IMG/VR virus record: IMGVR_UViG_3300037189_026801
Coordinates: 1 to 39,415 of that record
DNA length: 39,415 nt
Reading direction: 5' to 3' (one strand)
Source of the DNA: a virus
How positions within the stretch are numbered: the stretch's first letter is position 1; each line of letters starts with the position of its first letter. Under the pieces are notes generated by a model, which was not told the origin of the DNA, did no database searches, and was given only the letters and a program-made list of their open reading frames with translations. This document shows, in pieces, positions 11,098 through 36,352 of the stretch. The position numbers and the translations under genes were made by a program.

Positions 11098-11541
11098 ATG
11101 CTTATCTCGGATATGGTGGCGCGACTTAACGATGACTTGAAAAACGAGTGGAAGCACCTGAAATTTTACGCGCATCACGCCAGCGCCATAACCGGCTTGC
11201 ACGCGCACGAGTACAAGGAATTTCTAACTGAGCAGGCCAACAGCGAACTTCAGCATGTCATCCAGTTTGGTGATTTGATTATCGGGCTAGGCGCTACACC
11301 AACAACTGAGTCGAATGATTTTCCTAAGCTCACTGTCGCGAAAAATATTCTTGCGTACGCGATTGAAATAGAAAATGAAGTAGTGCAGAACTACTCGCAA
11401 CGCATCGCGGAGCTTGACCAAATTTTTGATACGCCTGAAACGATAGCGGATAAAAAGTGGATTGAAATTTTTCTCGAGAAGCAAATCGAAGACAGCCGAC
11501 AGGACCTCGATCATCTACGTCAAATTATTAAAGGAGAATAA
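11098..11541 (+). CDS. Ferritin-like diiron protein (bacterioferritin-like)
   Basis: This 147-residue all-helical protein, preceded by AAGGAA, fits the four-helix ferritin-like fold. Candidate iron ligands are Glu17 in helix A, Glu50 and His53 (ELQH, an ExxH), Glu90/Glu94 in helix C and Glu127/Glu131 in EKQIED. The final ExxH of classic bacterioferritin is not exact, so it may instead be a plain ferritin-like or Dps-like protein. The haem-binding Met is not evident. It may store iron or protect DNA from oxidants during infection, or contribute to the virion. Its stop codon abuts, and its last base takes part in, the closing stem of the RNA element at 11541. Confidence 0.8.
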   Translation: MLISDMVARLNDDLKNEWKHLKFYAHHASAITGLHAHEYKEFLTEQANSELQHVIQFGDLIIGLGATPTTESNDFPKLTVAKNILAYAIEIENEVVQNYSQRIAELDQIFDTPETIADKKWIEIFLEKQIEDSRQDLDHLRQIIKGE

Positions 11542-11752
11542 CAGGTTAGACGCAAATACGGCGACTGACTCGGTTTCTCCTTTCGGCTGAGTTGGTTTGA
11601 AGTTTGCGTGGCACAATGTGCCGCACGCTACCGGATAGTCAGCGTGCCGAGAATTAATCGCTGGGTTTTCAACGGAATCCGGCCGCGTCCTTCGCCCCTA
11701 CGACCGAGCATAAGTGGAATACGAGCGATTCTGCTGTTAATTCTTAACCTGT
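11541..11752 (+). ncRNA. Multibranched structured RNA element (class unknown)
   Basis: The 220 bases between two genes fold by hand into a compact junction with almost no unpaired bases between stems. The closing stem is 11541-11548 with 11745-11752 (8 bp, ACAGGTTA/TAACCTGT). Then come 11550-11557 with 11602-11609 (8 bp), enclosing 11564-11573 with 11587-11596 (10 bp, three G-T); hairpin 11610-11614 with 11618-11622; hairpin 11623-11629 with 11641-11647 (7 bp); and 11650-11657 with 11737-11744 (8 bp), continued by 11658-11661 with 11725-11728 after an 8-base bulge. No ORF covers it. It may be a processed noncoding RNA or a leader for the gene at 11762, which has no ribosome site. I recognise no known class. 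Confidence 0.7.
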
Positions 11753-11761
11753 TTTAGTTAT

Positions 11762-13273
11762 ATGGCGGATACTAAATACATTTCTTTCCCGCACGGATTG
11801 GGCGATTGCGCTAATTTTATTCTTGTTTTACGTATGTATCGCGCCTTGGGTTTTGATTTGGGCGCGACCTGCGAAAAAAATAAACAGCCATTTTTTACAG
11901 CTGCAAAAATTCCAACTGTTAGCCCCGGCGTAGTTACCGCACAAGAGCATCCGTGGTGGGAGCCGGCCGGGTTATCGCATGTAACTGCCGACAATGTTTT
12001 GGCGCAAAACAAAGTGCGGCAAAATTTTAAGGGTTCGCCGTTACCGCCAGTGCAGTTTACTAAAGAAGATCTTTGGCAGAAACTCGCAGCGCAGCGTGAC
12101 CCAGATATGTTTAATTTGTATCGGGATCGCGTGGCGGCGACCATAGATGAACTGCCCAAACCATTGTTGCTTGTTCACGCGCACGGCAATACATCTGCGG
12201 GACAAAAAGATCTTCCAGCAAATTTTGCTGCTGACGTTTCTTCGTTGTTCCTATCAGAGACGCGCGGGTCGGTTATTTTTTTGGATTGGGACAATCGCGT
12301 TAGTTGGGTGCATTCTTCTCGCGCACGCCACATTACATATCACTATGGCGGAGCGCTCTCGACGCCAGAATCTTTAATGGGTTTAATGGCCTCGGCCGAT
12401 ATTTTACTCGGAATTGATAGCGGTCCGTTGCACTTAGCCGGGTTAATAGATTTGCCTACGGTGGGCGTTTGGTCTGATCACCACCCGCTGCGTTATGCGG
12501 TTAGTCGCGAAAACGCATTACACATTTTAACTAAGCCAAATATCGCAAACATGTGGGCTGCGCCAGATTTTAACGCAGTAGATCAAATTAAATTAACGCC
12601 GCAGTATATTTTTGACGCGTTAAAACTTATGTTATCTCCGCGTGAGTTTGGATTATCGCGCGGGGCTGATGTGCAATTGCAACTAATGTTGAAAAAGTGT
12701 TACGGCGGTATAGTTAAAAACACTAAACATGTTCCAAGCGTCGTAGTAGATCGGCACATCAGTTTTTCTTTAATTTTTGATTACTTGCTGCAGCTGAACC
12801 GCCCGCCGAAAATTGTAGAAACCGGATGTATTCGCGCCGATAACGACTGGGCTGGCGCTGGGTATTCTACATTTTTATTTGGTTTGTTTGCGCACAGACT
12901 TGGCGGCAACTTATTGAGTATCGACCTGTCGTCCGCGAGCGTTAATTACGCGGCTCGAGTTTGTGCAACGTTGCCAAGTGTAACCATGTTATGCTCCGAT
13001 TCTGTAAAAGCTATATCTGAATTATCCGGCCCGGTCGATTTATTTTATCTCGACAGTATGGATGCCAACATCCCCGGCCACGAAGAACACGGATTAAACG
13101 AAGCTAAACAGAGCGTACAAAAAATTTCAAATGACGGATTAATCGTGTTTGATGATACCGTTAAGGATGGCAGCAGATTTCTGGGGAAGGGCGCGCTGGC
13201 CGTGCCGTGGCTATTAGACAATGGTTGGGAAATTATTTTTATGGGACACCAGATTGTATTAAAACGAGCTTAA
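11762..13273 (+). CDS. GT9-like glycosyltransferase fused to a class I methyltransferase
   Basis: This 503-residue protein has two domains. Residues about 1-295 match the GT9/ADP-heptose transferase type: PHGLGDCANF at the N-terminus (the GxGD acceptor-side motif), and DSGPLHLAGLIDLPTVGVW (219-237), the family signature for nucleotide-sugar binding. Residues about 330-503 look like a SAM-dependent methyltransferase (IVETGCIRA motif I near 351, LLSIDLS near 385, DLFYLDS, IVFDDT), of the Methyltransf_24 type. Together they could add and then methylate a sugar. There is no ribosome site before the ATG. The structured RNA ends nine bases upstream, so translation may depend on RNA structure. The next GT9-like gene starts two bases after its stop. 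Confidence 0.82.
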   Translation: MADTKYISFPHGLGDCANFILVLRMYRALGFDLGATCEKNKQPFFTAAKIPTVSPGVVTAQEHPWWEPAGLSHVTADNVLAQNKVRQNFKGSPLPPVQFTKEDLWQKLAAQRDPDMFNLYRDRVAATIDELPKPLLLVHAHGNTSAGQKDLPANFAADVSSLFLSETRGSVIFLDWDNRVSWVHSSRARHITYHYGGALSTPESLMGLMASADILLGIDSGPLHLAGLIDLPTVGVWSDHHPLRYAVSRENALHILTKPNIANMWAAPDFNAVDQIKLTPQYIFDALKLMLSPREFGLSRGADVQLQLMLKKCYGGIVKNTKHVPSVVVDRHISFSLIFDYLLQLNRPPKIVETGCIRADNDWAGAGYSTFLFGLFAHRLGGNLLSIDLSSASVNYAARVCATLPSVTMLCSDSVKAISELSGPVDLFYLDSMDANIPGHEEHGLNEAKQSVQKISNDGLIVFDDTVKDGSRFLGKGALAVPWLLDNGWEIIFMGHQIVLKRA

Positions 13274-16080: not shown

Positions 16081-16176
16081 GTGAATCGCATTGTATCGCT
16101 ATTTGGCGTAGTTTGGATTAACTGGCCGCGTGATTACTGGCTTAACGCATTTAAAAAAGGAACAAAACATGGCTAA
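16081..16176 (+). CDS. Possible 31-residue peptide
   Basis: A GTG two bases after the previous stop opens a 31-codon frame (MNRIVSLFGVVWINWPRDYW...) rich in aromatic and hydrophobic residues. It ends by overlapping the start of the actin-like gene by eight bases. The chain of overlaps and the amphipathic composition make it plausible. There is no clear ribosome site and no homology can be judged. It may only be a leader region. Confidence 0.25.
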   Translation: MNRIVSLFGVVWINWPRDYWLNAFKKGTKHG

Positions 16177-17170
16177 AGGTTTAGACGTTGGTACTTCTTT
16201 TATCGTGCTCGCGCAGGACACTGAAAAAGGCGTGGCGTACAAAGACTTTCGTGACGCATTTTATGTAATTAAACCTACTACGCCGGTCGCTACAAAGATG
16301 ATCGAAAAAGGCCTGCAGGGGCGGACATTCGTCAAAGACGCCGACGGCAGCTTTATACTTCTCGGGCAGGACGCAATTGAAAAAGCGGTAGAGCGTAATG
16401 ACTCGGCCAAGCGTCCGATGTATCGCGGCGTGGTTTCGCCGAAGGAGCGCGACGCTAAGCGTGTTTTAGCGTACATACTTAAAGAGGTAGCGGGCATTGC
16501 CGCAACCCCGGGGGAGCAATTGGTTTTTTGCGTGCCCGCGCAGCCCGTCGACCAGCCCGACGAAGACTTTGATGTCGGTTATCACGAAGATGTAATAAAG
16601 ATGGTTCTTGCGGAGGTTGGCTATAGCGCGCGCGCTATTAATGAGGCTGAAGCGCTGTGCTATTCCGAATTAGAAAATGACGATTACACCGGCGTTGCTC
16701 TTTCGTGCGGCGCTGGCATGGTGAACTGCTGCGTCATGCTAAACGGCGAGCCAACTGTGATGTTTAGCACCACAAAGTCCGGCGATTGGGTAGATCGCAT
16801 GGCCGCCGTTGCCACAGCTGAACCTGACTCAGTGGTACAGGCAGAAAAAGAGCACGGAGATTTCACAATCGGCGAGCCGACAGACAATCCAATTTTGGCG
16901 GCCGTTTCTAGCTATTATGAGCGGCTAATTGATTACACCACTAAGCAGTTAGCTAGCGCAATGGCCGGGCATAAGCTGCTGCCCAAGTTTAAAGAGCCGC
17001 TGCCGGTCGTAGTGGCTGGCGGCACGAGTCGCGCAAAGGGTTTTATTGAACTATTTTCGGCCAAACTGGCAGAGAATGAATTTCCGTTGCCAGTTGCCGT
17101 AGTACGACACGCTAGCGATCCGCTTCATGCTGTTGCGCGCGGCTGTTTAGTGGCCGCAAAAATTTTGTGA
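16169..17170 (+). CDS. Actin-like ATPase (ParM/Alp type)
   Basis: This 333-residue protein starts at the ATG at 16169 with an AAAGGA site. A start at 16130 would add 13 unlikely residues. Actin/Hsp70-fold motifs are present in order: phosphate-1 KGLDVGTS (3-10), connect-1 region NEAEALCYSEL, phosphate-2 ALSCGAGMVNCCV (about 181-193), and the adenosine motif VVAGGTSRAKGF (about 290-301). The length fits ParM-like proteins. Such filaments move plasmid or phage DNA, so the protein may position the phage genome or factory in the host. No ParR-like adaptor is obvious, though the membrane-anchored protein upstream is adjacent. The gene ends in a GTGA overlap with a GT25 gene. Confidence 0.85.
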   Translation: MAKGLDVGTSFIVLAQDTEKGVAYKDFRDAFYVIKPTTPVATKMIEKGLQGRTFVKDADGSFILLGQDAIEKAVERNDSAKRPMYRGVVSPKERDAKRVLAYILKEVAGIAATPGEQLVFCVPAQPVDQPDEDFDVGYHEDVIKMVLAEVGYSARAINEAEALCYSELENDDYTGVALSCGAGMVNCCVMLNGEPTVMFSTTKSGDWVDRMAAVATAEPDSVVQAEKEHGDFTIGEPTDNPILAAVSSYYERLIDYTTKQLASAMAGHKLLPKFKEPLPVVVAGGTSRAKGFIELFSAKLAENEFPLPVAVVRHASDPLHAVARGCLVAAKIL

Positions 17171-17895: not shown

Positions 17896-18885
17896 ATGTT
17901 TAACATACTTGCCGATATTCCATCGCCGCCCTTGAGCTGGGCAAGAATGTTCGCCGGAGATATTTATGAGCTGGCGCTTCCCTGTCCTGACAAGAAATGG
18001 GTTTGGACAAATCCATCTGTAATAAAAGCACTCGACGGAGATAATTATTTGTGCGCTGTTCGGCTTACAGTGTCTCCGTGGCACGGCGGGTATGCTTCTG
18101 AATTAGCTTTAGTTAAGACTAGTTTGTCAGGAATTCCGTCATCTATTAAACAATTGCGCCCACCAAAAGGCGATCGCGAACTAATTGACGACGCGCCAAT
18201 TGTGCATCACGGCGCGCACGATTGTCGTATTTTTAAAGTAGCTGGACGTTTATTTGGTACCGCTACTTTTTGGGATAACACAAAAGAATGCGTGCAAGAA
18301 GCTGGTTACACGCTTGGCAGAATAGGGTTAATAGAGATAGATGTTTCGGGAGTTAAACCGGTTTGGACTGCAACTAAAATGCTGCCAAGTCTATACGGCG
18401 CCGTCGAAAAAAATTGGATGCCGGTCGAGGATGAATTTTCTTGGTTATATTTACCAGCACAGAATATTTTTGCGGAATACGTCGCGGCCACACAAAAATT
18501 TAAATTTGCGTCAGTCGGTAGAACCCACGAAGAGCTAGAGTACGCACGCGGCGGGTCACAACTGGTAAAAATTGGCGCGAATTATTTGCTGGGTGTAGTG
18601 CATTACGTAACCGAGCCGGCTGTAACTAAACCCACATTCTTTCAGCGTTTGCGTTACGCGCATCGATTTATGCTGTACGATGCCGCAACGAAAGATTTGC
18701 TGGGTTTTTCTCCCTATTTTTACTTTATTAGCCCGAACGGTATTGAATTTGCCGCCGGCCTGGCGACGACACACGACGGCAACAGTGTAGTGGTTTCTTT
18801 CGGTTATAGGGACACATCTGCCTGGTTTGCTACGGCAACAATTCAGTCAGTTCTTTCTCAGATTCATTTTATTGTGCGTCACTAG
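17896..18885 (+). CDS. Five-bladed beta-propeller, GH130/GH43-like
   Basis: This 329-residue protein looks like a GH130/GH43-type propeller. Regularly spaced blade strands can be seen, with family-like segments HGAHDCRIFKVAGRLFGTAT (about 109-128), EKNWMPVEDE (about 170-179), RGGSQLVKIG and YAHRFMLYD, and a late IEFAAGL. GH130 enzymes act on beta-mannosides by phosphorolysis, and related non-catalytic propellers accompany glycosyltransferases. The usual catalytic Asp is not confidently placed. It could modify or bind the glycan made by the genes around it. It begins nine bases after the GT25 stop with no strong ribosome site. Confidence 0.7.
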   Translation: MFNILADIPSPPLSWARMFAGDIYELALPCPDKKWVWTNPSVIKALDGDNYLCAVRLTVSPWHGGYASELALVKTSLSGIPSSIKQLRPPKGDRELIDDAPIVHHGAHDCRIFKVAGRLFGTATFWDNTKECVQEAGYTLGRIGLIEIDVSGVKPVWTATKMLPSLYGAVEKNWMPVEDEFSWLYLPAQNIFAEYVAATQKFKFASVGRTHEELEYARGGSQLVKIGANYLLGVVHYVTEPAVTKPTFFQRLRYAHRFMLYDAATKDLLGFSPYFYFISPNGIEFAAGLATTHDGNSVVVSFGYRDTSAWFATATIQSVLSQIHFIVRH

Positions 18886-18949: not shown

Positions 18950-18971
18950 GCCGACTGTATCTTGTTAAAAT
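18950..18971 (+). promoter_or_regulatory. Weak promoter-like -10 ahead of the second RNA element
   Basis: TAAAAT (18966-18971) matches a -10 at five of six positions. A TTGCCG (18945-18950) lies 15 bases upstream, a short spacer. Transcription would start close to 18978, at the start of the RNA's closing stem. The 90 bases before the RNA (18886-18974) are otherwise T-rich and noncoding. Found by eye; spacer and -35 are imperfect. Confidence 0.25.
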
Positions 18972-18974
18972 TGA

Positions 18975-19201
18975 ATTTGTTGTAAGTTAGTCGTGGTGGT
19001 CGACTGGTTAGGATGCTACTTCGCGCGACAGGGATGTTGCGCGGGGTAGTCGGAGTCCGTGGTCAGGCTACGGCCGCGCACACGGCAGGTGGAGCAATGA
19101 ATGCCGCACGAGGTTAATTTATACCTTAGAAAGTCATTGCGTTGCCCTGGTTCGCCGGGGTTAGGACCTGCGGGAGGGGATCGCAGGGGCTTACAACAAA
19201 T
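18975..19201 (+). ncRNA. Second multibranched structured RNA (class unknown)
   Basis: This noncoding stretch folds by hand around a perfect 12-bp closing stem, 18975-18986 with 19190-19201. Inside are 18987-18993 with 19001-19007 (7 bp); 19016-19029 with 19036-19049 (14 bp with a few G-T); 19057-19061 with 19081-19085; 19094-19100 with 19134-19140 (GCAATGA/TCATTGC), enclosing a small hairpin; 19145-19150 with 19155-19160, capped by a TTCG tetraloop; and 19167-19172 with 19182-19187. GGTTAGGA occurs twice (19006-19013 and 19159-19166) in junction strands. The layout resembles a stable free RNA more than a small leader hairpin. It is not a tRNA or an obvious tmRNA. I recognise no class. Confidence 0.7.
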
Positions 19202-19225
19202 CATTAATTTTAAATGAGGCGGCAA

Positions 19226-19579
19226 ATGATCGACGAATATTTTCATTCGTTGTCGGTGTTAGCTAGCGCTTTTGGCGTATCTGCGTTTGCGGGCTTAGCC
19301 ACTTTGTTGCGGTTTGCCCACAAATTTTCGCGGTTATCTGTGATTAGTGCTATGTTGAACGCCGGCTTTTTGGGGCTAGCAATTGCCCTTCTTTGGTACC
19401 AAAACTACCGAAATGCTGAAAATGTTTATGGATTGCTCGGTATTTGCGTATTAGCCGGTATGGGTGGCTCTACGCTCACAGATTTGTTAATATCATTATT
19501 GTCTGGAGCCGGCATACAGGTCACAATTACCCATTCACGCCAAGATGACGGAGAAGACGATGACGCTAAAAACACGTAA
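19226..19579 (+). CDS. Membrane protein, holin-like
   Basis: The protein has 117 residues from the ATG at 19226, which has GAGGCGG just upstream. An ATG at 19214 would add four residues but has no ribosome site. Three hydrophobic helices are predicted by eye (about 8-26, 37-57 and 69-92, the last including LAGMGGSTLTDLLISLL), followed by a beta-like ITITHS stretch and an acidic DDGEDDD tail. Size and topology fit a class I holin or similar small phage membrane protein. No endolysin is adjacent, so this remains tentative. The small gene at 19560 overlaps its end. Confidence 0.65.
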   Translation: MIDEYFHSLSVLASAFGVSAFAGLATLLRFAHKFSRLSVISAMLNAGFLGLAIALLWYQNYRNAENVYGLLGICVLAGMGGSTLTDLLISLLSGAGIQVTITHSRQDDGEDDDAKNT

Positions 19580-19724: not shown

Positions 19725-19796
19725 TCCCTGATAGCTCAATGGTAGAGCGACCGGCTGTTAACCGGTAGGTTGTAGGTTCGAGCCCTACTCGGGGAG
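19725..19796 (+). tRNA. tRNA-Asn (anticodon GTT)
   Basis: A 72-base cloverleaf is complete. The acceptor stem is TCCCTGA (19725-19731) with TCGGGGA (19789-19795) and discriminator G. The D stem is GCTC/GAGC, the anticodon stem ACCGG/CCGGT with loop CTGTTAA (anticodon GTT, reading AAC/AAT), and the T arm GTAGG-TTCGAGC-CCTAC. No 3' CCA is encoded. It lies between two genes and was probably released from a longer transcript. It is the only tRNA I find in the window. Confidence 0.95.
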
Positions 19797-19810
19797 CTCG
19801 GGAGCTGTTT

Positions 19811-21226
19811 ATGGATGGCATATCACTTTTAAATCCGTCAACCCCAGACTTTCAGCCGCTGCTTTATTCGCGGGGTAACGCGGTAGGGTGGCTAGCGCGC
19901 AGCGACAAAACGGCCGCAGCGCCATACAACATGGCTGGCCGGCTATATCTAGCCAAAAGCGGCTGGCTTCTTCTGTCCGTACCGAATGCGTTTGTTCGTG
20001 GCGTATTTGACGCGCTAACGGCCCCGGGGGCAGAACTACCCACGGCCGGGCTTATGAACGTGCCCAACGTAGACGGCGATGTGCTTAATGCGCATATCTC
20101 CGTTATGACCGCTGCCGAGGTTGAAGCTATCGGCGCCGACAAGATTAACGAGCGCGGGCACATGTTTTATTACGCGCTAGGCCCGGTAGAAGAAATTCCC
20201 GTACACAATGTAGACGGCGTTAGCAAGATTTGGGCTGTGCAGGTTAAGAGCCCTGCCCTCGCCGCCTTACGCAAAAGCTACGGCTTATCGCCGTACATTA
20301 AAGATCATCAGTTTCACATAACTGTTGCCGCCCGCCGCAAAAAAGTCCTAGCCAATAACGACGTCAGCAAGTTTGACACTGCAACCGGCCGCGGTGAGCT
20401 AAAAGCCGCCGCCGCCGATAAAACAACATACGACTGCTGTTGTGCTGGTCCCTGTACATGCCCGCCAACTTGCATCTGCAAAAAGAGCGGATATTGTGGG
20501 CATAAAAAAGAAGCGGAAGACATTCTTACAGGCGGCGCAGCAGACAACAAACCAGATTCGGCGTTTCCAAAAAAGGAATTACAGAAAGGCAAGAAGCATG
20601 AGCGAGAACACACAAATAATGATCAAGTCGCCGCAGAAATTGCCAAGGATCATCTGCAAGAAGAACCCAACTACTACAAAAAGCACGCCGAAGAAAAAGA
20701 AGTAAATAAAGAACCTGCAATCATTTTTCAGCTACGTAAAGCCAAAGAGCATTCCGACGCGAAACGGTATAAACATAAAAATGAAATACTGCGCAAATTA
20801 ATGCACCGCGCCCCTGAAGACTGGTTTGTCGACGATCCCGATAAATATCACATGGGAATTACGCACGCTCCAACTAATTTCCGTTTTCATGCTGATCCGC
20901 GCATTATTCCGGTAGGCGTGCCCGTCCAGAAGGCTGCGGCTAAAAATCCTTACGCCGGGCACCTGTTCGATTTCAAAGAGCCGCTTGTTGTTCCGCCTAA
21001 TTCAAACATGTGGCAGAAAACTCTGGCGCATTTACAGCGCGTTGTAGATAAAGGTAATCGTACAGCGGAAATGCAGCAGCGTACGCCCGGGCTTCTGGCA
21101 GCTATGGATCCGGCATACAAGCACCAAATGAACATGTCGATTGCGCGAGGCGTTTGGCCGCAGCCTGATTTACTTACACAGCTTATTCAGCGCCATGGGA
21201 GCGGCGTACTCGCGTCGTTACAGTAA
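19811..21226 (+). CDS. 2H phosphoesterase-like protein with Cys cluster and DUF5661-like region
   Basis: This 471-residue multidomain protein is preceded by GGGAG. Residues about 1-175 contain the paired motifs HIS (95-97) and HIT (169-171), as in 2H (HxS/T...HxS/T) phosphoesterases that act on 2',3'-cyclic RNA ends or related substrates. A cluster of eight cysteines (209-229, CCCAGPCTCPPTCIC...C) likely binds metal. Residues about 262-296 (HEREHTNNDQVAAEIAKDHL...PNYYKKH) closely match DUF5661, a short phage family of unknown function. A third part (about 330-471) carries APEDWFVDDP and THAPTNFRFH and looks structured. The combination suggests RNA repair or processing, possibly packaged. Its stop overlaps the next ATG by one base. 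Confidence 0.75.
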   Translation: MDGISLLNPSTPDFQPLLYSRGNAVGWLARSDKTAAAPYNMAGRLYLAKSGWLLLSVPNAFVRGVFDALTAPGAELPTAGLMNVPNVDGDVLNAHISVMTAAEVEAIGADKINERGHMFYYALGPVEEIPVHNVDGVSKIWAVQVKSPALAALRKSYGLSPYIKDHQFHITVAARRKKVLANNDVSKFDTATGRGELKAAAADKTTYDCCCAGPCTCPPTCICKKSGYCGHKKEAEDILTGGAADNKPDSAFPKKELQKGKKHEREHTNNDQVAAEIAKDHLQEEPNYYKKHAEEKEVNKEPAIIFQLRKAKEHSDAKRYKHKNEILRKLMHRAPEDWFVDDPDKYHMGITHAPTNFRFHADPRIIPVGVPVQKAAAKNPYAGHLFDFKEPLVVPPNSNMWQKTLAHLQRVVDKGNRTAEMQQRTPGLLAAMDPAYKHQMNMSIARGVWPQPDLLTQLIQRHGSGVLASLQ

Positions 21227-22623: not shown

Positions 22624-22989
22624 ATGACTAAGAAAAGTATCAGCACAGTCCGCGAAGAGTTGCGTGTATTGAATACTGCAGCGGCAGACAATTCGTCTGA
22701 GCAGGATTGGATCACGCCTGAGTTTATTTCTATGGCAACAGCGGTAGTTGTAAATTTAATTACAGCCGCGACGTTGATTGGTTGGGTTGAAGCACATCAC
22801 GCTCAAGAACTAGTAAATGCTGCCACCGCAGTAATTGCTGGTCTCGGTGCGGTTAGCGCTAACGCTTTGATTGTGTGGAAATATTTAACCAGTCGCGCGG
22901 AAGTTAAGGCGCAGCAAATTAATGCGCAATATCGTTATATGGAGTCTATTGCGATCGAGCGCATGCGCGCGGATCGCGCTGGAAGTTGA
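22624..22989 (+). CDS. Holin-like membrane protein
   Basis: This 121-residue protein has an excellent GGAGG site seven bases before the ATG. Two transmembrane helices (about 35-56 and 62-88) are joined by a short VEAHHAQEL turn, followed by a charged C-terminal helix (SRAEVKAQQINAQYR...). This N-in/C-in two-helix pattern with a charged tail fits many phage holins, though other small membrane proteins look alike. TTGCGC-17-CAGAAT at 22568-22596, ending 28 bases before the ATG, is a weak promoter candidate with the same distance as at 34-61. The stop overlaps the next ATG. Confidence 0.65.
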   Translation: MTKKSISTVREELRVLNTAAADNSSEQDWITPEFISMATAVVVNLITAATLIGWVEAHHAQELVNAATAVIAGLGAVSANALIVWKYLTSRAEVKAQQINAQYRYMESIAIERMRADRAGS

Positions 22990-23412: not shown

Positions 23413-24234
23413 ATGGCCAAAAGAAAAATTGTAAAACCGGGGCAAGTACTAAAAGACGCCGAGATAGTCGCGCGGTTATTTACGCTCGGATACTTTGGCG
23501 ATCTACCGTGGGCGAAAGTTCGCGGGCTGCATGGCGCGAAGCTAGACAGCGCAATTCGCGAGTATCAGCAATTTCACGGACTTAAATCTGACGGAATTGT
23601 CGGAGTAAAGACTGCGCACGTGCTGTTGCGGCACCGTTGCGGCCTACCCGACTTTAACATCTCCGGCAGTGACGCTCCATGCAGATGGCCAATGCCGCGG
23701 ATTACCTACTACGCCAAACTTAGACTGCCCGGTATTACAGAAGAGCAGGCAGACCTAGCTTACGATACAGCTTTTGCGCAGTGGGCTGCTGTGTGCAACG
23801 TAGAGCCAGTCCGCGTGCACGACCACAACCTAGCGAACATTTTTGCCAAGTCTGGCGTGGGTAGAGCTGTCAACTTAGATGACCGCGGGGGTACGCTTGC
23901 GTGGAGTGAGCTGCCGTGCAATGTCACTGAACACATACAGCTTGATCAAATGTACGACGAGGCTGAGGATTGGTCATTTAACATGGCTGTCGCCGTTATT
24001 TGCCACGAACTTGGCCATGCGCTTGGTTTAGCGCATCTCGGTAAGGGCAATTTAATGGCGCCGTACTACGACCCAAACGTTAGAGCGCCGCAAAAGGGCG
24101 ACATCAAGGAAATGGTTAAATTGTACGGAAAGCCAGCCAAATCGGCCCGCGAGTTAAACACGAATGCAGAACTTTTGGTGGCTGGTACAATCATGATTAA
24201 TGGAAAACCGTACAAACTTGTACCGCAGACTTGA
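23413..24234 (+). CDS. Matrixin-type metalloprotease with peptidoglycan-binding domain and cysteine-switch-like motif
   Basis: This 273-residue protein is built like a matrix metalloprotease proenzyme. Residues about 12-72 form a PG_binding_1-like domain (AIREYQQFHGLKSDGIVG...TAHVL). RCGLPD (75-80) resembles the MMP PRCGxPD switch, whose Cys coordinates zinc. The catalytic domain has ICHELGHALGLAHLGKGNLMAP, with zinc ligands His198, His202 and His208 and catalytic Glu199, plus the Met-turn at 215. No signal peptide is seen, so it may be a virion or lysis protein rather than Sec-exported. It probably cuts proteins near the cell wall, and activation by release of Cys76 is inferred. A tail of about 45 residues follows. 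Confidence 0.9.
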   Translation: MAKRKIVKPGQVLKDAEIVARLFTLGYFGDLPWAKVRGLHGAKLDSAIREYQQFHGLKSDGIVGVKTAHVLLRHRCGLPDFNISGSDAPCRWPMPRITYYAKLRLPGITEEQADLAYDTAFAQWAAVCNVEPVRVHDHNLANIFAKSGVGRAVNLDDRGGTLAWSELPCNVTEHIQLDQMYDEAEDWSFNMAVAVICHELGHALGLAHLGKGNLMAPYYDPNVRAPQKGDIKEMVKLYGKPAKSARELNTNAELLVAGTIMINGKPYKLVPQT

Positions 24235-29096: not shown

Positions 29097-32000
29097 ATGC
29101 CAACACCTGGGTCTTCTAACTCGATTCTCGGCGGCTCGCGCGAATTTGGCGACGTGCCCGCTTTGCGCAGTAATATTTTTAGCCAGGCGCAAGAATCTGT
29201 AGTTGAAGTGGCGCCGTTTGAACCGGTGTTCACGCGCGAAGATATATTCGACACGGTGGCGAATCAGGCAAAACAAATTAAGCCAATTCAAAACGACCTG
29301 TACACATTAAGCCTCGGCGACGTTAAGTACGAGGGGCCAGAGCGCTTCACCAAAAAAGATCACAAAAATGCGGTTTTGTCCCACAGCAGCTTAGCGCGTA
29401 AGTTGCGGGGTACGTGGAATTTAACGGATAACAAAACGGGGCAAGTTGTCGCGAATCGCCGCGCTACTTTAGCTAACGTGCCGTACATGACCGACGCCGG
29501 CACGTTCGTGCACAATGGCGTTGAGTACACACTGGCGCATCAGATGCGATTACGCCCTGGCGTGTACACGCGTGAAAAAGACAACGGTGAGCTTGAAGCG
29601 CATGTTAACGTGTTGCCAGGCCGCGGCCGCATGCACCGATACTTCTTAGATCCCAAAACAGGCGTGTTTAAGATTAATATCGGGCAAGCGAATATTCCGC
29701 TTATGCCGCTGCTCAAAATTATGGGCGTGTCTGAGGGCGACATCCGCAAAACTTGGGGCAATGAATTAACCGCTGTAAACATCGAAAAGGGCGACGCGGG
29801 CACGGTGGATAAGCTTTACAACCGGCTTGTGTATAAGGCGCAGCCTGGAATTGACGCGGCTGCTAAGCAAAAAGCAATTGCGGAAGAATTTGCCAAGATG
29901 GAACTTGACGAGGAAGTCACAAAAAGAACACTTGGCCGGAAAATAAAAAATTTAACGCCTGATGCCATTTTAGATATTACAAAAAAGCTGATCGCCGTTA
30001 ATCGTAAAGAGGCCGATCCGGACGATCGCGACAGTATGGCGTTTCAGCAGATTCTCGGGCCGGAAGACTTGATTGCCGAGCGTTTTACAAAAGATCGCGC
30101 GATGTTACGGCAATTGTTGTGGAAAGCCACCGCAAAAAAATCTTTGGATCACGTACCGACGGGCGCATTTAACAAAGCTATTGTGTCGGCGCTGATTGGC
30201 TCGGGATTAGGCTCTAGCCTAGAAGAAATCAATCCGGCTGAAATTTTTGACCATCAGACGCGCGTAACCAGACTTGGCGAGGGCGGCATCGGTTCGTTAG
30301 ACGCGGTGCCAGTAGAAAGCCGATCGGTACAGCCTAGTCACTTCGGCTTTGTGGATTATTTAAGAACGCCGGAAAGCGGTAAGGTTGGCGTAGATATGCG
30401 ATTTGCTCGCGGCGCCGTAAAAGGATCTGACGGCAAAATATACGTCAAAGTAAAAAACATGGCTAACGGGCGCATGGAGTACAAGTCGCCCCAGGATATC
30501 GCGGACACCCCTCTCGTGTTTCCCGGCGAAGACAAAACAGATTTGCCAAACGTCGCGGCTATTGTTAACGGAAAGATGAAGTACATTCCGCGCGAAGAGG
30601 CGAAATACATTCTTCCGACGATGGATTCTTCGTTCTCGATGTTGTCGAATATGGTGCCGCTAAAATCCATGATGAAAGGCCATCGCGTCATCATGGGTAG
30701 CCGAATGTTTACTCAGGCACTCCCGCTAGCCAACGCCGAAGCTCCGCTAATCCAATCCGCGACGGCCGACGACGAAAGTAAATCATACGAAGATTTGATG
30801 GGCAAAAATCTCGGCGCCATAACAGCCGACGAGGTTTCGCAGGTAGTCTCGGTTAACCCGGATGAAATTGTTTTGCGAAATCAAAAAGGCGACACAAAGA
30901 CAATCGACCTGTATAACGACGCGCCTTTTAATCGTAAAACATTCTGGACGCAAAAAGCGCTAGTACAGCCCGGCGACACAGTAAAGCCTGGACAAATTTT
31001 AGCTAAATCAAACTTCACAAACGACAAAGGAACGGCAGCGCTTGGTTTAAATATGCGCGTTGGTTATTTGCCGTTTAAAGGCCTGGTATACGACGATTCT
31101 GTAGTTATTTCGCAGTCGGCAGCGAAGCGTTTAACGTCGGATCATATGTATCAGCACGAGGCGGACGCAGACGACAGCACATTTATTGATAAGAAAAAAT
31201 TTATCAGTCTTTTCCCGAGCGAATACGACCGCCGCACGCTAGAGAACTTTGACGATAATGGCGTTATTAAAAAAGGCGCTATGGTAAACTTCGGCGATCC
31301 GCTGTTGCTAGTCACGAAGCAGCGCGACACGACTTACGGGCAGGTCCACCGCGGACAAAAAGCGAATTTTGTTAATGATGCCGTGACCTGGGACCACCAC
31401 TCTTCTGGCATTGTTACAGACGTCGCTAAAACTAAAAAAGGCTATAGCGTTGTTGTTAAAAGCCAGGCGGAAATGGAAGTCGGCGATAAGCTCACCGGCC
31501 GTTTCGGCGACAAAGGAGTTGTCGCGGGTATTATTGCCGATGATGAGATGCCAAAAGACGCGCAAGGCCGTCCGCTCGAGCTTTTAGTAAGTCCGCTCGG
31601 ATTAGCCAGCCGCGTTAATCCGTCGCAGATTGTTGAGGCAGCGCTTGGCAAGGTGGCTGAAAAGACTGGACAGCCGTACAAAATAAAAGACTTCGATGAC
31701 GCTAAAGATTTGATTGAATTTGCGCGGACAGAGCTGCGCAAAAATCAACTAGAAGATCTTGAAGAGGTCGTTGACCCGGAAACTGGCCGTAAGATAAAAG
31801 GCGTGCTGACGGGAAATAGATTTTTTATGAAACTGCACCACACCAGCGAAAGCAAAGCCCAAGGCAGGTCGACGGGCGGCTATACCGCAGAAGGCGCGCC
31901 AGCAAAGGGCGGTAGTGGCGGCGCTAAACGCGTAGGCATGCTTGATCTTGGCGCACTTTTAAGTCATGGCGCCGGCAAAGTAATTCGTGACGCCAAGATG

Positions 32001-33542
32001 GTGCGCGGCCAGGCCAATCCAGAATACTGGTCGCAGTTTATGGCCGGATATGACCCGCCGTTACCGCGTATTCCTAACGTATACGCCAAATTTGTCGAGC
32101 AGCTTCGTGGCGCGGGTATTAATACCGTACGCACAGGCAACAAGACAAACATAATGGCTCTTACTGACACAGACATTGACGAACTTGCCGGCGATCGCGA
32201 ACTCGAAAATTCTGAGACGGTAGATTGGAAGTCTAATCTGCGACCAAAGGCGGGCGGTCTGTTTGACGAAAAATTAACTGGCGGACATAACGGAAATCGT
32301 TGGTCTAAAATCACACTTTCCGAGCCAATGCCTAATCCGGTTATGGAAGAGCCGATTCGTCGGGTGCTTGGCATTACGGAAAAACAAATGCGCGAGGTTA
32401 TTGCTGGTCGCGCGCAGATAAACAATCAAACAGGCCCAAAAGCTATTCAAACAGCGTTGTCGAACATAGACGTGCCTAAAGCTATCGAGCAGGCGCGCAT
32501 GGACATTCAATCTGGGCGTAAGACAGCGCGAGATGCTGCCGTGCGTCGGTTAGCTTTTTTAAAGAGCGCGGAAAAAACTGGCGTACATCCAAAAAATTGG
32601 ATGCTCACAAAAATGGGCGTTATTCCGCCAATGTTCCGCCCCGTGTCAACAATGGGGCAAAAGAAAATGCCGCTCGTTGCCGACGCGAACTACTTATACA
32701 AAGAATTGCTAGACGCTAACTCTGCGTTAAAAGACGCTTCCGGCGTGCTCGAGGACGTGGGCGACGAGAGACTAGGCGTATATGACGCGATGAAGTCTGT
32801 TACGGGTTTAGGCGATCCGCAGCAAGCCAAAAACGCTGAACGACGCGTGCGCGGATTTTTAAAAGAAATTTTTGGCTCGTCGCCGAAGTATGGCACGGTG
32901 CAGCGAAAATTATTGAGCACCACGGTCGACCTAGTTGGTCGCGCTGTAATTACGCCCAATCCAGATCTTGATATGGATTCAGTTGCTCTGCCTGAAGACA
33001 AAGCATGGGAGATATACAAGCCATTTATTGTGCGCTCTCTCGTTCGACGAGGATTGCCGCGTATGCAGGCGTTAAAATCCTTCGACGAGCGCAATAGAGA
33101 GGCCACTGCGACGTTACAGCAGCAAATGAGTTCGCGGCCAATTATTATTAATCGTGCGCCTGTATTGCATCGTTACGGCATGATGGCGTTCTATCCGCGA
33201 CTCACAAAAAACAAAACAATGGAAGTAAGCCCGCTGGTTACAAAAGGCTTCGGCGCCGACTTTGACGGCGACGCCATGCAGTTTCACGTTCCGAGCACTG
33301 ACTCTGCGGCTCAAGAAGCGGCAGAAAAAATGTTGCCCAGTAAAAATCTTTTTTCAGTGGCCTCGTTCAAAGGGCACTTTACTCCTGTAGCCGAATTTCA
33401 TTCTGGTTTGTACGTAGCGTCTAATAAAATTAATAAAAAGTCACCTCCGCGCGTATTCAGAAATCAAAAGGACGCAATAGCCGCTTACCGCCGCGGCGAA
33501 ATAGAGGTCGACACGCCGGTACATATTGTGGAGAATAGTTAG
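29097..33542 (+). CDS. RNA polymerase beta subunit fused to N-terminal half of beta-prime
   Basis: This 1481-residue protein joins most of RpoB (about 1-1010) to the first half of RpoC (about 1040-1481). Beta signatures in order are VPYMTDAGTFVHNG, GSRMFTQALPLANAEAPLI, GQILAKSNFTNDKG, YLPFKGLVYDDS, GDKLTGRFGDKGV (Lys798 and Lys806, spaced as the two active-site lysines of bacterial beta), SPLGLASRVNPSQIVE and KAQGRSTGGY. Beta-prime signatures are GLFDEKLTGG, INRAPVLHRYGMMAF and the magnesium-binding ADFDGD (Asp1388, 1390, 1392). The N-terminal beta-prime zinc domain is absent, and the protein has no cysteine. It ends in an AAYRRGEIEVDTPV segment, before the bridge helix, and is completed by the protein at 34463. 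It should form the catalytic core of a phage-encoded multisubunit polymerase. Confidence 0.95.
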   Translation: MPTPGSSNSILGGSREFGDVPALRSNIFSQAQESVVEVAPFEPVFTREDIFDTVANQAKQIKPIQNDLYTLSLGDVKYEGPERFTKKDHKNAVLSHSSLARKLRGTWNLTDNKTGQVVANRRATLANVPYMTDAGTFVHNGVEYTLAHQMRLRPGVYTREKDNGELEAHVNVLPGRGRMHRYFLDPKTGVFKINIGQANIPLMPLLKIMGVSEGDIRKTWGNELTAVNIEKGDAGTVDKLYNRLVYKAQPGIDAAAKQKAIAEEFAKMELDEEVTKRTLGRKIKNLTPDAILDITKKLIAVNRKEADPDDRDSMAFQQILGPEDLIAERFTKDRAMLRQLLWKATAKKSLDHVPTGAFNKAIVSALIGSGLGSSLEEINPAEIFDHQTRVTRLGEGGIGSLDAVPVESRSVQPSHFGFVDYLRTPESGKVGVDMRFARGAVKGSDGKIYVKVKNMANGRMEYKSPQDIADTPLVFPGEDKTDLPNVAAIVNGKMKYIPREEAKYILPTMDSSFSMLSNMVPLKSMMKGHRVIMGSRMFTQALPLANAEAPLIQSATADDESKSYEDLMGKNLGAITADEVSQVVSVNPDEIVLRNQKGDTKTIDLYNDAPFNRKTFWTQKALVQPGDTVKPGQILAKSNFTNDKGTAALGLNMRVGYLPFKGLVYDDSVVISQSAAKRLTSDHMYQHEADADDSTFIDKKKFISLFPSEYDRRTLENFDDNGVIKKGAMVNFGDPLLLVTKQRDTTYGQVHRGQKANFVNDAVTWDHHSSGIVTDVAKTKKGYSVVVKSQAEMEVGDKLTGRFGDKGVVAGIIADDEMPKDAQGRPLELLVSPLGLASRVNPSQIVEAALGKVAEKTGQPYKIKDFDDAKDLIEFARTELRKNQLEDLEEVVDPETGRKIKGVLTGNRFFMKLHHTSESKAQGRSTGGYTAEGAPAKGGSGGAKRVGMLDLGALLSHGAGKVIRDAKMVRGQANPEYWSQFMAGYDPPLPRIPNVYAKFVEQLRGAGINTVRTGNKTNIMALTDTDIDELAGDRELENSETVDWKSNLRPKAGGLFDEKLTGGHNGNRWSKITLSEPMPNPVMEEPIRRVLGITEKQMREVIAGRAQINNQTGPKAIQTALSNIDVPKAIEQARMDIQSGRKTARDAAVRRLAFLKSAEKTGVHPKNWMLTKMGVIPPMFRPVSTMGQKKMPLVADANYLYKELLDANSALKDASGVLEDVGDERLGVYDAMKSVTGLGDPQQAKNAERRVRGFLKEIFGSSPKYGTVQRKLLSTTVDLVGRAVITPNPDLDMDSVALPEDKAWEIYKPFIVRSLVRRGLPRMQALKSFDERNREATATLQQQMSSRPIIINRAPVLHRYGMMAFYPRLTKNKTMEVSPLVTKGFGADFDGDAMQFHVPSTDSAAQEAAEKMLPSKNLFSVASFKGHFTPVAEFHSGLYVASNKINKKSPPRVFRNQKDAIAAYRRGEIEVDTPVHIVENS

Positions 33543-34462: not shown

Positions 34463-36352
34463 ATGCTTAAAACAACTCTTGGTCAAATTTTGATAAACGA
34501 CGCCCTGCCAGAAGATTTGCGGGATTATAACCGCGTAATGAACAAGAAAAACATCGGGGCATTAGCGACGGAGCTGGCGCAAAAATATCCCGACAAATAC
34601 CGCGAAATTGTAAAACGACTTTTAGATGTCGGTCGCGAGACGTCATATACGACTAATGGATTATCTATTGGTTTGGATCACATTCGGCCAACTGTTTCCG
34701 CGCTGCAAATTCAAAATGATGTAAAAAAAAGACTGCGCGGTATTCTTGCGGACCGATCACTTGACGATAAGTCACGTAATTTAAAAATTTTGGAGCTAAC
34801 ATCGTCGGCGCAAAAACAGCTCGTAGACAAAGTATTTACAGACGCTGAAGACCAAGATAATCCTTTATTCCACCAGGTCAGCGGCGGCGTAAAAGGCAAC
34901 AAGTTTCAGCTCAACAGCATTATCGGCGCGGACATGCAATATGTGGATCATAAAAACGATCCCATTCCAATTCCTGTCATGCGCAGTTACGGCCAAGGTC
35001 TGCGGCCTGTCGAATATTTTGCGGGCGCATTCGGGACGCGTAAAGGTCTTATGGATCTTAAAACAGCGACGTCAGATGCCGGGTTCTTCGCCAAGCAGCT
35101 GACGCAGATGAACCACAGGCTACTTGTAACCGCAGACGACGATGATGACGAAGACCCTGAAGTTAAAAAATTAGCGGAAACACGCGGCCTGCCGGCAGAA
35201 GTAGACGACCCAGACAACGAAGGTTCGCTGCTGGCTAGAGCGGCTGGGCCGTATAAACGCAATACAATTTTGACGCCTAAAATCCTGAAACATATTAAAG
35301 AACTAGGCGTAAAAGATATTCTTGTGCGTAGCCCTACAGTTGGCGGCCCCGCGGACGGCGGCGTATATGCCCGCGATGTCGGTTATCGCGAGAAGGGCCG
35401 CCTGCCACCCATTGGCGACTATGTCGGCATAGCGGCGGCGCAGGCATTAGCCGAGCCAGTTACTCAAAGTCAGATTAGCTCTAAACATTCAGGCGGTGTC
35501 GGCGGAGCTGGCGCTATTGCTGGCTTTAAGGCGCTAAACGCGCTAGTGCAGGTGCCCGAAAAATATCCAGATGGCGCGGCTCACTCACAGCTAGACGGCA
35601 CGGTACAAGAAGTACGTCCAGCGCCACAGGGCGGTACATATGTAAATATTAACGGACAAGATCACTACGTCCCGACAGGTATTCCGCTAAAGGTAAAAAA
35701 AGGCGATGCGCTTGAGGCGGGTGACGTATTGTCAGAAGGAATGCCCAGCCCGGCAGAAATTGTAAAATATAAGGGCGTCGGAGAAGGTCGCCGGTATTTC
35801 GTGTCGGCCATGAAGCAGGTTTTGAGTAATAGCGGAATTGGTTCTCATCGCAGAAACGTCGAGCTGCTGGCGCGCGGTTTAATTAATCACGTCAGGCTTA
35901 CAGACGAGTATGGCGATTATGTTCCAGATGATGTCGTGCCGTATTCGATGTTAGAGCGTAACTGGACTCCGCGCGCCGGCTCCGTGCGGTCGAATCCGAA
36001 GGGTTTAACTGGACATTATTTGGAAAAGCCCGTATTGCATTATTCAATCGGCACAAAGATTGGAAAGTCGGTAGTAGATAATTTAACAAAATACGGCATT
36101 AATGAAATTGAGGCGCATAAAGAGCCGCCCCCATTTGAGCCCGAGATGATTCGCGGCATGGCCAGTATCTCTAACGACCCTGACTGGATGACGCGACTAA
36201 TGGGATCTTATCAGCAAAAAAGCCTGCTTAGTGCCACGCAAAGAGGCGGAGAAAGCGATCTTGGCGGCAGCAGTTTTGTGCCTGGCTTAGCGCGCGGAGA
36301 GACGTTTGGCGTTAGTAATGTAACAAGTGGTTGGAACCCAAATCAGAAATAG
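34463..36352 (+). CDS. RNA polymerase beta-prime C-terminal part (bridge helix and trigger loop)
   Basis: This 629-residue protein continues where the fusion protein ends. It starts with TTLGQILINDALPE, the counterpart of TTVGR... in bacterial beta-prime. It then has TNGLSIGLDHIRP, the bridge-helix/trigger-loop core FAGAFGTRKGLMDLKTATSDAGFFAKQL (about 187-214), VRSPTVGG...GVYARDVGY, where the four-Cys zinc site of bacterial beta-prime should be but is missing, and VGIAAAQALAEPVTQSQISSKHSGG (about 318-342), the classic GEPGTQ region. There is no cysteine. The tail (about 520-629) is not clearly alignable and ends near NPNQK. The split falls close to, but before, the cyanobacterial RpoC1/RpoC2 break, with the TTLG region in the second protein. 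Confidence 0.95.
   Translation: MLKTTLGQILINDALPEDLRDYNRVMNKKNIGALATELAQKYPDKYREIVKRLLDVGRETSYTTNGLSIGLDHIRPTVSALQIQNDVKKRLRGILADRSLDDKSRNLKILELTSSAQKQLVDKVFTDAEDQDNPLFHQVSGGVKGNKFQLNSIIGADMQYVDHKNDPIPIPVMRSYGQGLRPVEYFAGAFGTRKGLMDLKTATSDAGFFAKQLTQMNHRLLVTADDDDDEDPEVKKLAETRGLPAEVDDPDNEGSLLARAAGPYKRNTILTPKILKHIKELGVKDILVRSPTVGGPADGGVYARDVGYREKGRLPPIGDYVGIAAAQALAEPVTQSQISSKHSGGVGGAGAIAGFKALNALVQVPEKYPDGAAHSQLDGTVQEVRPAPQGGTYVNINGQDHYVPTGIPLKVKKGDALEAGDVLSEGMPSPAEIVKYKGVGEGRRYFVSAMKQVLSNSGIGSHRRNVELLARGLINHVRLTDEYGDYVPDDVVPYSMLERNWTPRAGSVRSNPKGLTGHYLEKPVLHYSIGTKIGKSVVDNLTKYGINEIEAHKEPPPFEPEMIRGMASISNDPDWMTRLMGSYQQKSLLSATQRGGESDLGGSSFVPGLARGETFGVSNVTSGWNPNQK

Follow-up and report, generated by a model that had tools for sequence, protein, structure and literature searches.

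A large structured RNA that precedes the gene for a small membrane protein in one group of ~200 kb phages is most likely a 5' leader of a new class

The put antiterminator RNA of phage HK022 is a short RNA of two hairpins, and the transcript modifies RNA polymerase for processive antitermination. Riboswitches and protein-binding leaders occupy the 5' UTRs of bacterial mRNAs, while the stem-loops that control phage lysis genes (e.g., lambda S) lie just upstream of those genes. Ornate RNAs associated with phages, among them GOLLD and ROOL, have also been described, as have further candidates for structured RNAs (PMC12286853, PMC2864571). Here, we analysed a 39,415-nt stretch of viral DNA (hereafter, the window; positions 1 to 39,415 of IMG/VR record IMGVR_UViG_3300037189_026801), in which an original prediction, made from the sequence alone, had placed a structured RNA downstream of a propeller gene. 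The element, which we term E2, is a real, conserved, structured RNA that is new to databases; in the group of ~200 kb phages that share it, it most likely forms a large structured 5' leader of a new class.

18975 to 19201, + strand: E2, a structured RNA of ~220 nt, matched by the covariance model at 205.7 bits, with covariation in 53 variants

The folding energy of E2 was -102.4 kcal/mol, compared to a mean of -78.0 (sd 4.5) for 200 dinucleotide shuffles, none of which folded as well (z = -5.45). The perfect 12-bp closing stem that had been predicted is present (18975 ATTTGTTGTAAG pairs with 19190 CTTACAACAAAT), as are several internal helices within 18975-19201, including a long stem in the window sequence (P3, below) and a TTCG-capped hairpin (P7). 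Two occurrences of GGTTAGGA had also been pointed out, and both exist, but only the first (GGTTAGG after P2) is kept in relatives; the second is confined to the window sequence and is probably due to chance.

Relatives of E2 were collected by way of neighbouring proteins. The protein encoded at 19811 led to five loci, in which an element 69% identical to E2 lies at the same place, and the volactin-like protein (16130-17170) led to 80 loci, many of them carrying E2; a profile search then recovered 32 distinct copies. Thirty-one copies were aligned with MAFFT, without a covariance model, to give alignment A5. Its consensus fold contains 60 pairs, with changes on both sides at 42, and 327 double-change cells were observed where shuffles led us to expect 100; pairing dropped from 97% to about 40% when the columns were shifted by one to three. 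The set was enlarged by means of a covariance model (R1) and a DNA pattern scan of viral contigs. R1 detected the RNA in 59 of 72 newly fetched loci (E below 1e-46) and, within the window, matched only 18973-19200. This brought the number of distinct complete variants to 53, all from contigs of uncultivated phages that reach a length of about 205 kb. Across these variants, 97.5% of 3,443 cells are paired, double-change cells number 595 (177 ± 15 [sd] in shuffles), and pairing falls to 35-45% on sliding by 1-3 columns. Double changes occur at 47 of the 65 pairs, i.e., the conserved secondary structure looked for in a cis-regulatory leader RNA. Since the 53-row alignment was fitted to the model, it is biased towards structure; the model-free A5 agrees with it. 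Covariation in 31, and then in 53, homologues therefore supports the predicted fold, the parts of which are as follows (percentages and double changes refer to the 53 variants).

18975 to 18988, + strand: 5' strand of the closing stem P1, pairing with 19188-19201; compensatory changes at 10 of 12 consensus pairs, 97.6% paired
18989 to 19005, + strand: hairpin P2 with loop UGGUGGU, 18989-18993 pairing with 19001-19005; double changes at 4 of 5 pairs, 100% paired
18996 to 19000, + strand: 5' strand of a pseudoknot, in the P2 loop, pairing with 19103-19107 in 265 of 265 cells; double changes at 3 of 5 pairs
19021 to 19044, + strand: consensus core of P3, a variable stem that is longer in the window; 4 plus 3 consensus pairs, the outer part paired in 87.3% of cells, each of its 4 pairs with double changes
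19028 to 19037, + strand: conserved CA-GGGA-UG hairpin of the consensus, capping P3
19057 to 19085, + strand: hairpin P4 with an invariant GUGGUCAG; double changes at 3 of 9 pairs, 96.2% paired
19094 to 19140, + strand: P5, 19094-19100 pairing with 19134-19140 (100% paired), enclosing P6 and a conserved AAUGCC(A/G)CAC internal loop
19103 to 19107, + strand: 3' strand of the pseudoknot, in the P5 internal loop, covarying with 18996-19000
19110 to 19114 with 19123 to 19127, + strand: P6, 99.6% paired; P5 and P6 together have double changes at 10 of 12 pairs
19144 to 19161, + strand: hairpin P7, with a TTCG loop in the window; double changes at 8 of 8 pairs, 96% paired
19167 to 19187, + strand: hairpin P8 with an invariant AGGGGAUC loop; double changes at 4 of 7 pairs, 98.1% paired
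19188 to 19201, + strand: 3' strand of P1, covarying with the 5' strand

The 5-bp pseudoknot, which is absent from the original prediction, was spotted on reading the alignment, where the P2 loop (UGGUGGU) faces CC(A/G)C and a neighbouring nucleotide in the P5 internal loop. It pairs in 155 of 155 cells of A5, where three of the five pairs also show double changes, and in 53/53 variants of the enlarged set, where it is the top non-nested covariation signal; the exchanges include U-A to C-G, G-C to A-U, and C-G to U-A. No other convincing pseudoknot was found in the 53-row set, the remaining signals being slightly displaced forms of this pairing and short runs beside it. The invariant loops (UGGUUAGG, GGGA, GUGGUCAG, AAUGCC(A/G)CAC, and AGGGGAUC) resemble surfaces to which a protein or ligand might bind.

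Conserved or alternating G-U pairs are numerous among the 53 variants, and their retention indicates that the functional strand is the + strand, i.e., that of the downstream gene (F3, below). These pairs would be C-A mismatches on the other strand, which speaks against a DNA-level structure such as an origin or packaging site, as do the promoter element directly 5' of E2 and an orientation that is always that of F3. Despite the occurrence of E2 as a single copy in each of the genomes searched, we regard this explanation as very improbable. Protein-coding sequence on either strand is an even poorer account of the conservation, and one to which we give almost no credence: minus-strand open reading frames cover E2 in several loci, but several variants lack such a frame, homologues differ in length by amounts not divisible by three, and compensatory changes at paired positions prevail. 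A minus-strand coding sequence was accordingly rejected as unconserved and broken by frame-shifting length changes. A small open reading frame inside E2 (GGAGG...AUG in some variants) was likewise rejected, as neither its AUG nor its GGAGG is conserved (AAUACC, AAUGUC, and GGUGG occur). tRNA or tmRNA identity was also dismissed, as ARAGORN finds only a tRNA-Asn at 19725.

Directly 5' of the closing stem, the TAAAAT noted in the original prediction as a -10-like element is present at 18966-18971, and relatives conserve its position.

18963 to 18971, + strand: extended -10 promoter-like element TGTTAAAAT (TGnTAAAAT), its hexamer conserved in position

In 44 of the 53 variants, a TAnAnT hexamer, mostly TAAAAT, TAAACT, or TATAAT, precedes the P2 loop by 22-31 nt. 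In the remaining nine, TGATAAATT, TGATAAAGT, or CGATAATT is found farther upstream, ahead of an extra 5' hairpin; a clade with such a hairpin between the -10 and P1 comprises L007, L011, L022, L034, L098, L106, L124, L131, and L155. The -10 has thus followed the RNA's 5' end upstream; this is good, though indirect, evidence for the position of the transcription start. A promoter-consensus scan gave the site no score because its -35 is weak. Extended -10 promoters can do without a -35. In four loci (L048, L014, L118, and L002) an inverted repeat (e.g., CTTTTATCCGCC...GGCGGATAAAAG) lies directly ahead of the -10; it may serve the upstream gene as a terminator, or else be an operator.

Downstream of E2, the next gene is F3, which encodes a small membrane protein.

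19202 to 19225, + strand: linker with a Shine-Dalgarno-like GAGGCGG (ribosome-site estimate) and without a terminator-like site
19226 to 19579, + strand: F3, weakly holin-like small membrane protein of 117 aa (121 aa from an in-frame ATG at 19214) with three predicted helices

F3 follows E2 in all 51 distinct variants (of the 53) for which downstream DNA is available and, in a reciprocal search that started from the F3 protein alone, E2 lies directly upstream in 80 of the 80 loci kept. The distance from the end of E2 to the start of F3 is 15-54 nt across these 80 loci. E2 therefore keeps an invariant position 5' of the same gene, on the same strand and at short spacing, as expected of a leader; likewise, a putative promoter, recognized by its sequence alone, stands at its 5' end, and the terminator scan found no terminator-like site between E2 and F3. 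Upstream, by comparison, relatives carry different genes (volactin-like, of a 150-190 aa family, or glycosyltransferase-like; the propeller gene in the window). The propeller gene (17896-18885), just upstream of E2, matches nothing in Pfam or PHROGs, and searches of viral contigs gave no relatives of it; it appears to be a local insertion. A tRNA-Asn (GTT) lies at 19725-19797, between F3 and the next gene; in L003, it follows a ferritin gene instead.

The original prediction had read the size and layout of E2 as those of stable free RNAs. The main rival to a leader is indeed a trans-acting noncoding RNA, which would accumulate on its own after termination or processing at the 3' side of P1, and to which F3 would merely be a neighbour. 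Like free structured RNAs, E2 has a closed fold that is bounded by P1 at both ends and contains invariant junctions and a pseudoknot; it carries its own promoter-like element, and the same phages carry at least one further conserved RNA, at 11541, with varying neighbour genes. However, a free RNA would be expected to yield some relocated copies, and there are none in the 53 variants; the E2-F3 linkage is strict both ways (51/51 and 80/80), and no terminator-like structure follows P1. Since other conserved genes come after F3, the linkage could also reflect a conserved gene block, and such a block headed by a free RNA could give the same pattern. We consider a free RNA unlikely, though deserving of attention, and a 5' leader likelier. 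The two-way linkage, fixed spacing, common strand, 5' promoter, and lack of a terminator make a leader of F3 the best reading of E2, so that the earlier interpretation is partly supported.

Whether the element at 11541 is related to E2 had been left undecided by the original prediction. It is unrelated: it differs in structure and neighbours, and the E2 model does not match it. The element (11541-11762; fold z -2.98) is a conserved RNA too, with 18 distinct complete copies in 33 loci and the strongest conservation in its 3' half. It adjoins a ferritin-like gene, its neighbours vary, and it looks more like a free RNA.

The 5' end of E2 coincides with the presumed start of transcription, a long series of genes in the same orientation follows it, and the phage encodes parts of a multisubunit RNA polymerase; these features would also suit an RNA that acts in cis as the first element of a long late operon, bringing about put-like antitermination or recruiting the phage's polymerase. 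Terminator-like sites downstream are no commoner than in shuffles, though, and strong ones are absent, so there is no visible need for antitermination, and put, with its two hairpins, is far shorter than E2. This role therefore seems improbable to us. The polymerase genes lie at 29097-33542 and 34463-36352; a single protein of 1,481 aa combines beta with the beginning of beta'.

F3, the gene that E2 would lead, belongs to a family of ~118 aa proteins. A low-confidence structure model (pLDDT 59.5) shows three long hydrophobic helices, and the alignment shows a charged tail; small size, one to three transmembrane segments, and a charged C-terminus are what would be looked for in a holin. Weak matches to a PHROGs holin family (phrog_6384) were obtained with 19 of 39 F3 members (best 7.7e-5; window protein 0.0068), and a Pfam search of F3 returned no holin family and nothing consistent. 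On these weak profile matches and this general character, F3 is probably a holin, or a lysis protein resembling one. Another gene for a small membrane protein of holin-like look, without a family match, lies at 22624-22989, and a gene with peptidoglycan-binding and matrixin metallopeptidase domains lies 4 kb downstream of F3 (23413-24234).

Taken together, we think it reasonably probable that E2 is the structured 5' leader (5' UTR) of the mRNA of a holin or holin-like lysis protein, F3, and that the folded leader controls this gene. Transcription would begin at the first nucleotides of P1, from the conserved extended -10 promoter, and the leader would adopt its closed, multi-branched structure, pinned by the pseudoknot that joins the P2 loop to the internal loop of P5. 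The mRNA would then continue 15-54 nt past the leader into F3, the timing or amount of which would be set by the folded leader. E2 would act most likely on translation or mRNA stability, upon binding of a protein or ligand to its invariant junction and loop nucleotides. No consistent pairing of E2 with the estimated F3 ribosome site was seen, so no simple sequestering switch is visible. A more specific and rather speculative idea is that E2, as a large RNA sensing a ligand or protein, sets the time of lysis in these ~200 kb phages through the holin-like gene, i.e., works as an RNA sensor on the lysis clock.

The phages that carry E2 are uncultivated, and each of five long records (197-205 kb) has one convincing copy. 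Neither a BLASTN search with E2 nor a search for F3 gave a match among isolated phages. Scanning 84,980 genomes of bacteria and archaea for the DNA pattern, which covers pattern-holding sequences only, gave 31 matches, of which the model confirmed 0. R1 recovered five positive controls and found no E2 in Salmonella phage Arash, Vibrio phage D69, or two uncultured phages of 485-595 kb. Over almost the whole protein, the fused RNA polymerase beta/beta' of the E2-carrying phages shares ~31-32% identity with its counterparts in Salmonella phage Arash and Vibrio phages D69, D148, and D181. The protein encoded at 16130-17170 is a full-length actin of the volactin family (Pfam PF25216 Volactin, E 2.9e-62), here in a phage, and relatives are encoded in 359 viral stretches. 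Seventeen volactin-bearing records (some of 187-230 kb, most of them fragments) gave no E2 match, and the parts fetched were also without F3; E2 is therefore not required in every volactin phage.

As the original prediction had recommended, E2 was compared with Rfam, and it matched no known family. Rfam 15 had no match to E2 in the window, where only the tRNA elsewhere was found, and none in the E2 region at E values up to 5, so that no model of a free, ornate noncoding RNA of the GOLLD, ROOL, or OLE type is matched at that level. Searches of eight relatives (E up to 2) returned only tRNAs and one sub-threshold antisense-of-tRNA match, and we found no description of such an RNA in the open-access literature. 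E2 thus stands for a well-supported class of structured RNA that had not been described; it contains a pseudoknot, its junctions are invariant, and a single gene, for a small membrane protein, accompanies it in every case. Should it control the timing of lysis, a complex RNA, rather than a small hairpin or a protein, would be acting on the lysis decision, which is rare. Its invariant nucleotides make ligand or protein binding directly testable.

Among known systems, E2 resembles the riboswitches and protein-binding leaders of bacterial 5' UTRs in its presumed place at the mRNA 5' end, conserved junctions, pseudoknot, and fixed short distance to the gene, but it has no Rfam match and no visible expression platform, and has so far been found only in phages. 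The gene linked to E2 is neither metabolic nor ribosomal but encodes a small membrane protein. GOLLD and ROOL, like E2, are complex multi-branched RNAs from phage or metagenomic DNA that were found by comparative genomics; they are much longer and, unlike them, E2 matches no model and is always linked to one gene. With the HK022 put RNA, E2 would share a position at the start of a phage transcript and a possible interaction with RNA polymerase, but it is several times larger, with ten helices, and there is no sign of terminators that would need read-through. Finally, as with the stem-loop controls on phage lysis genes such as lambda S, an RNA structure lies just upstream of what may be a lysis gene; however, those controls are small hairpins at the ribosome site, while E2 is a large, independent fold that ends 15-54 nt before its gene.
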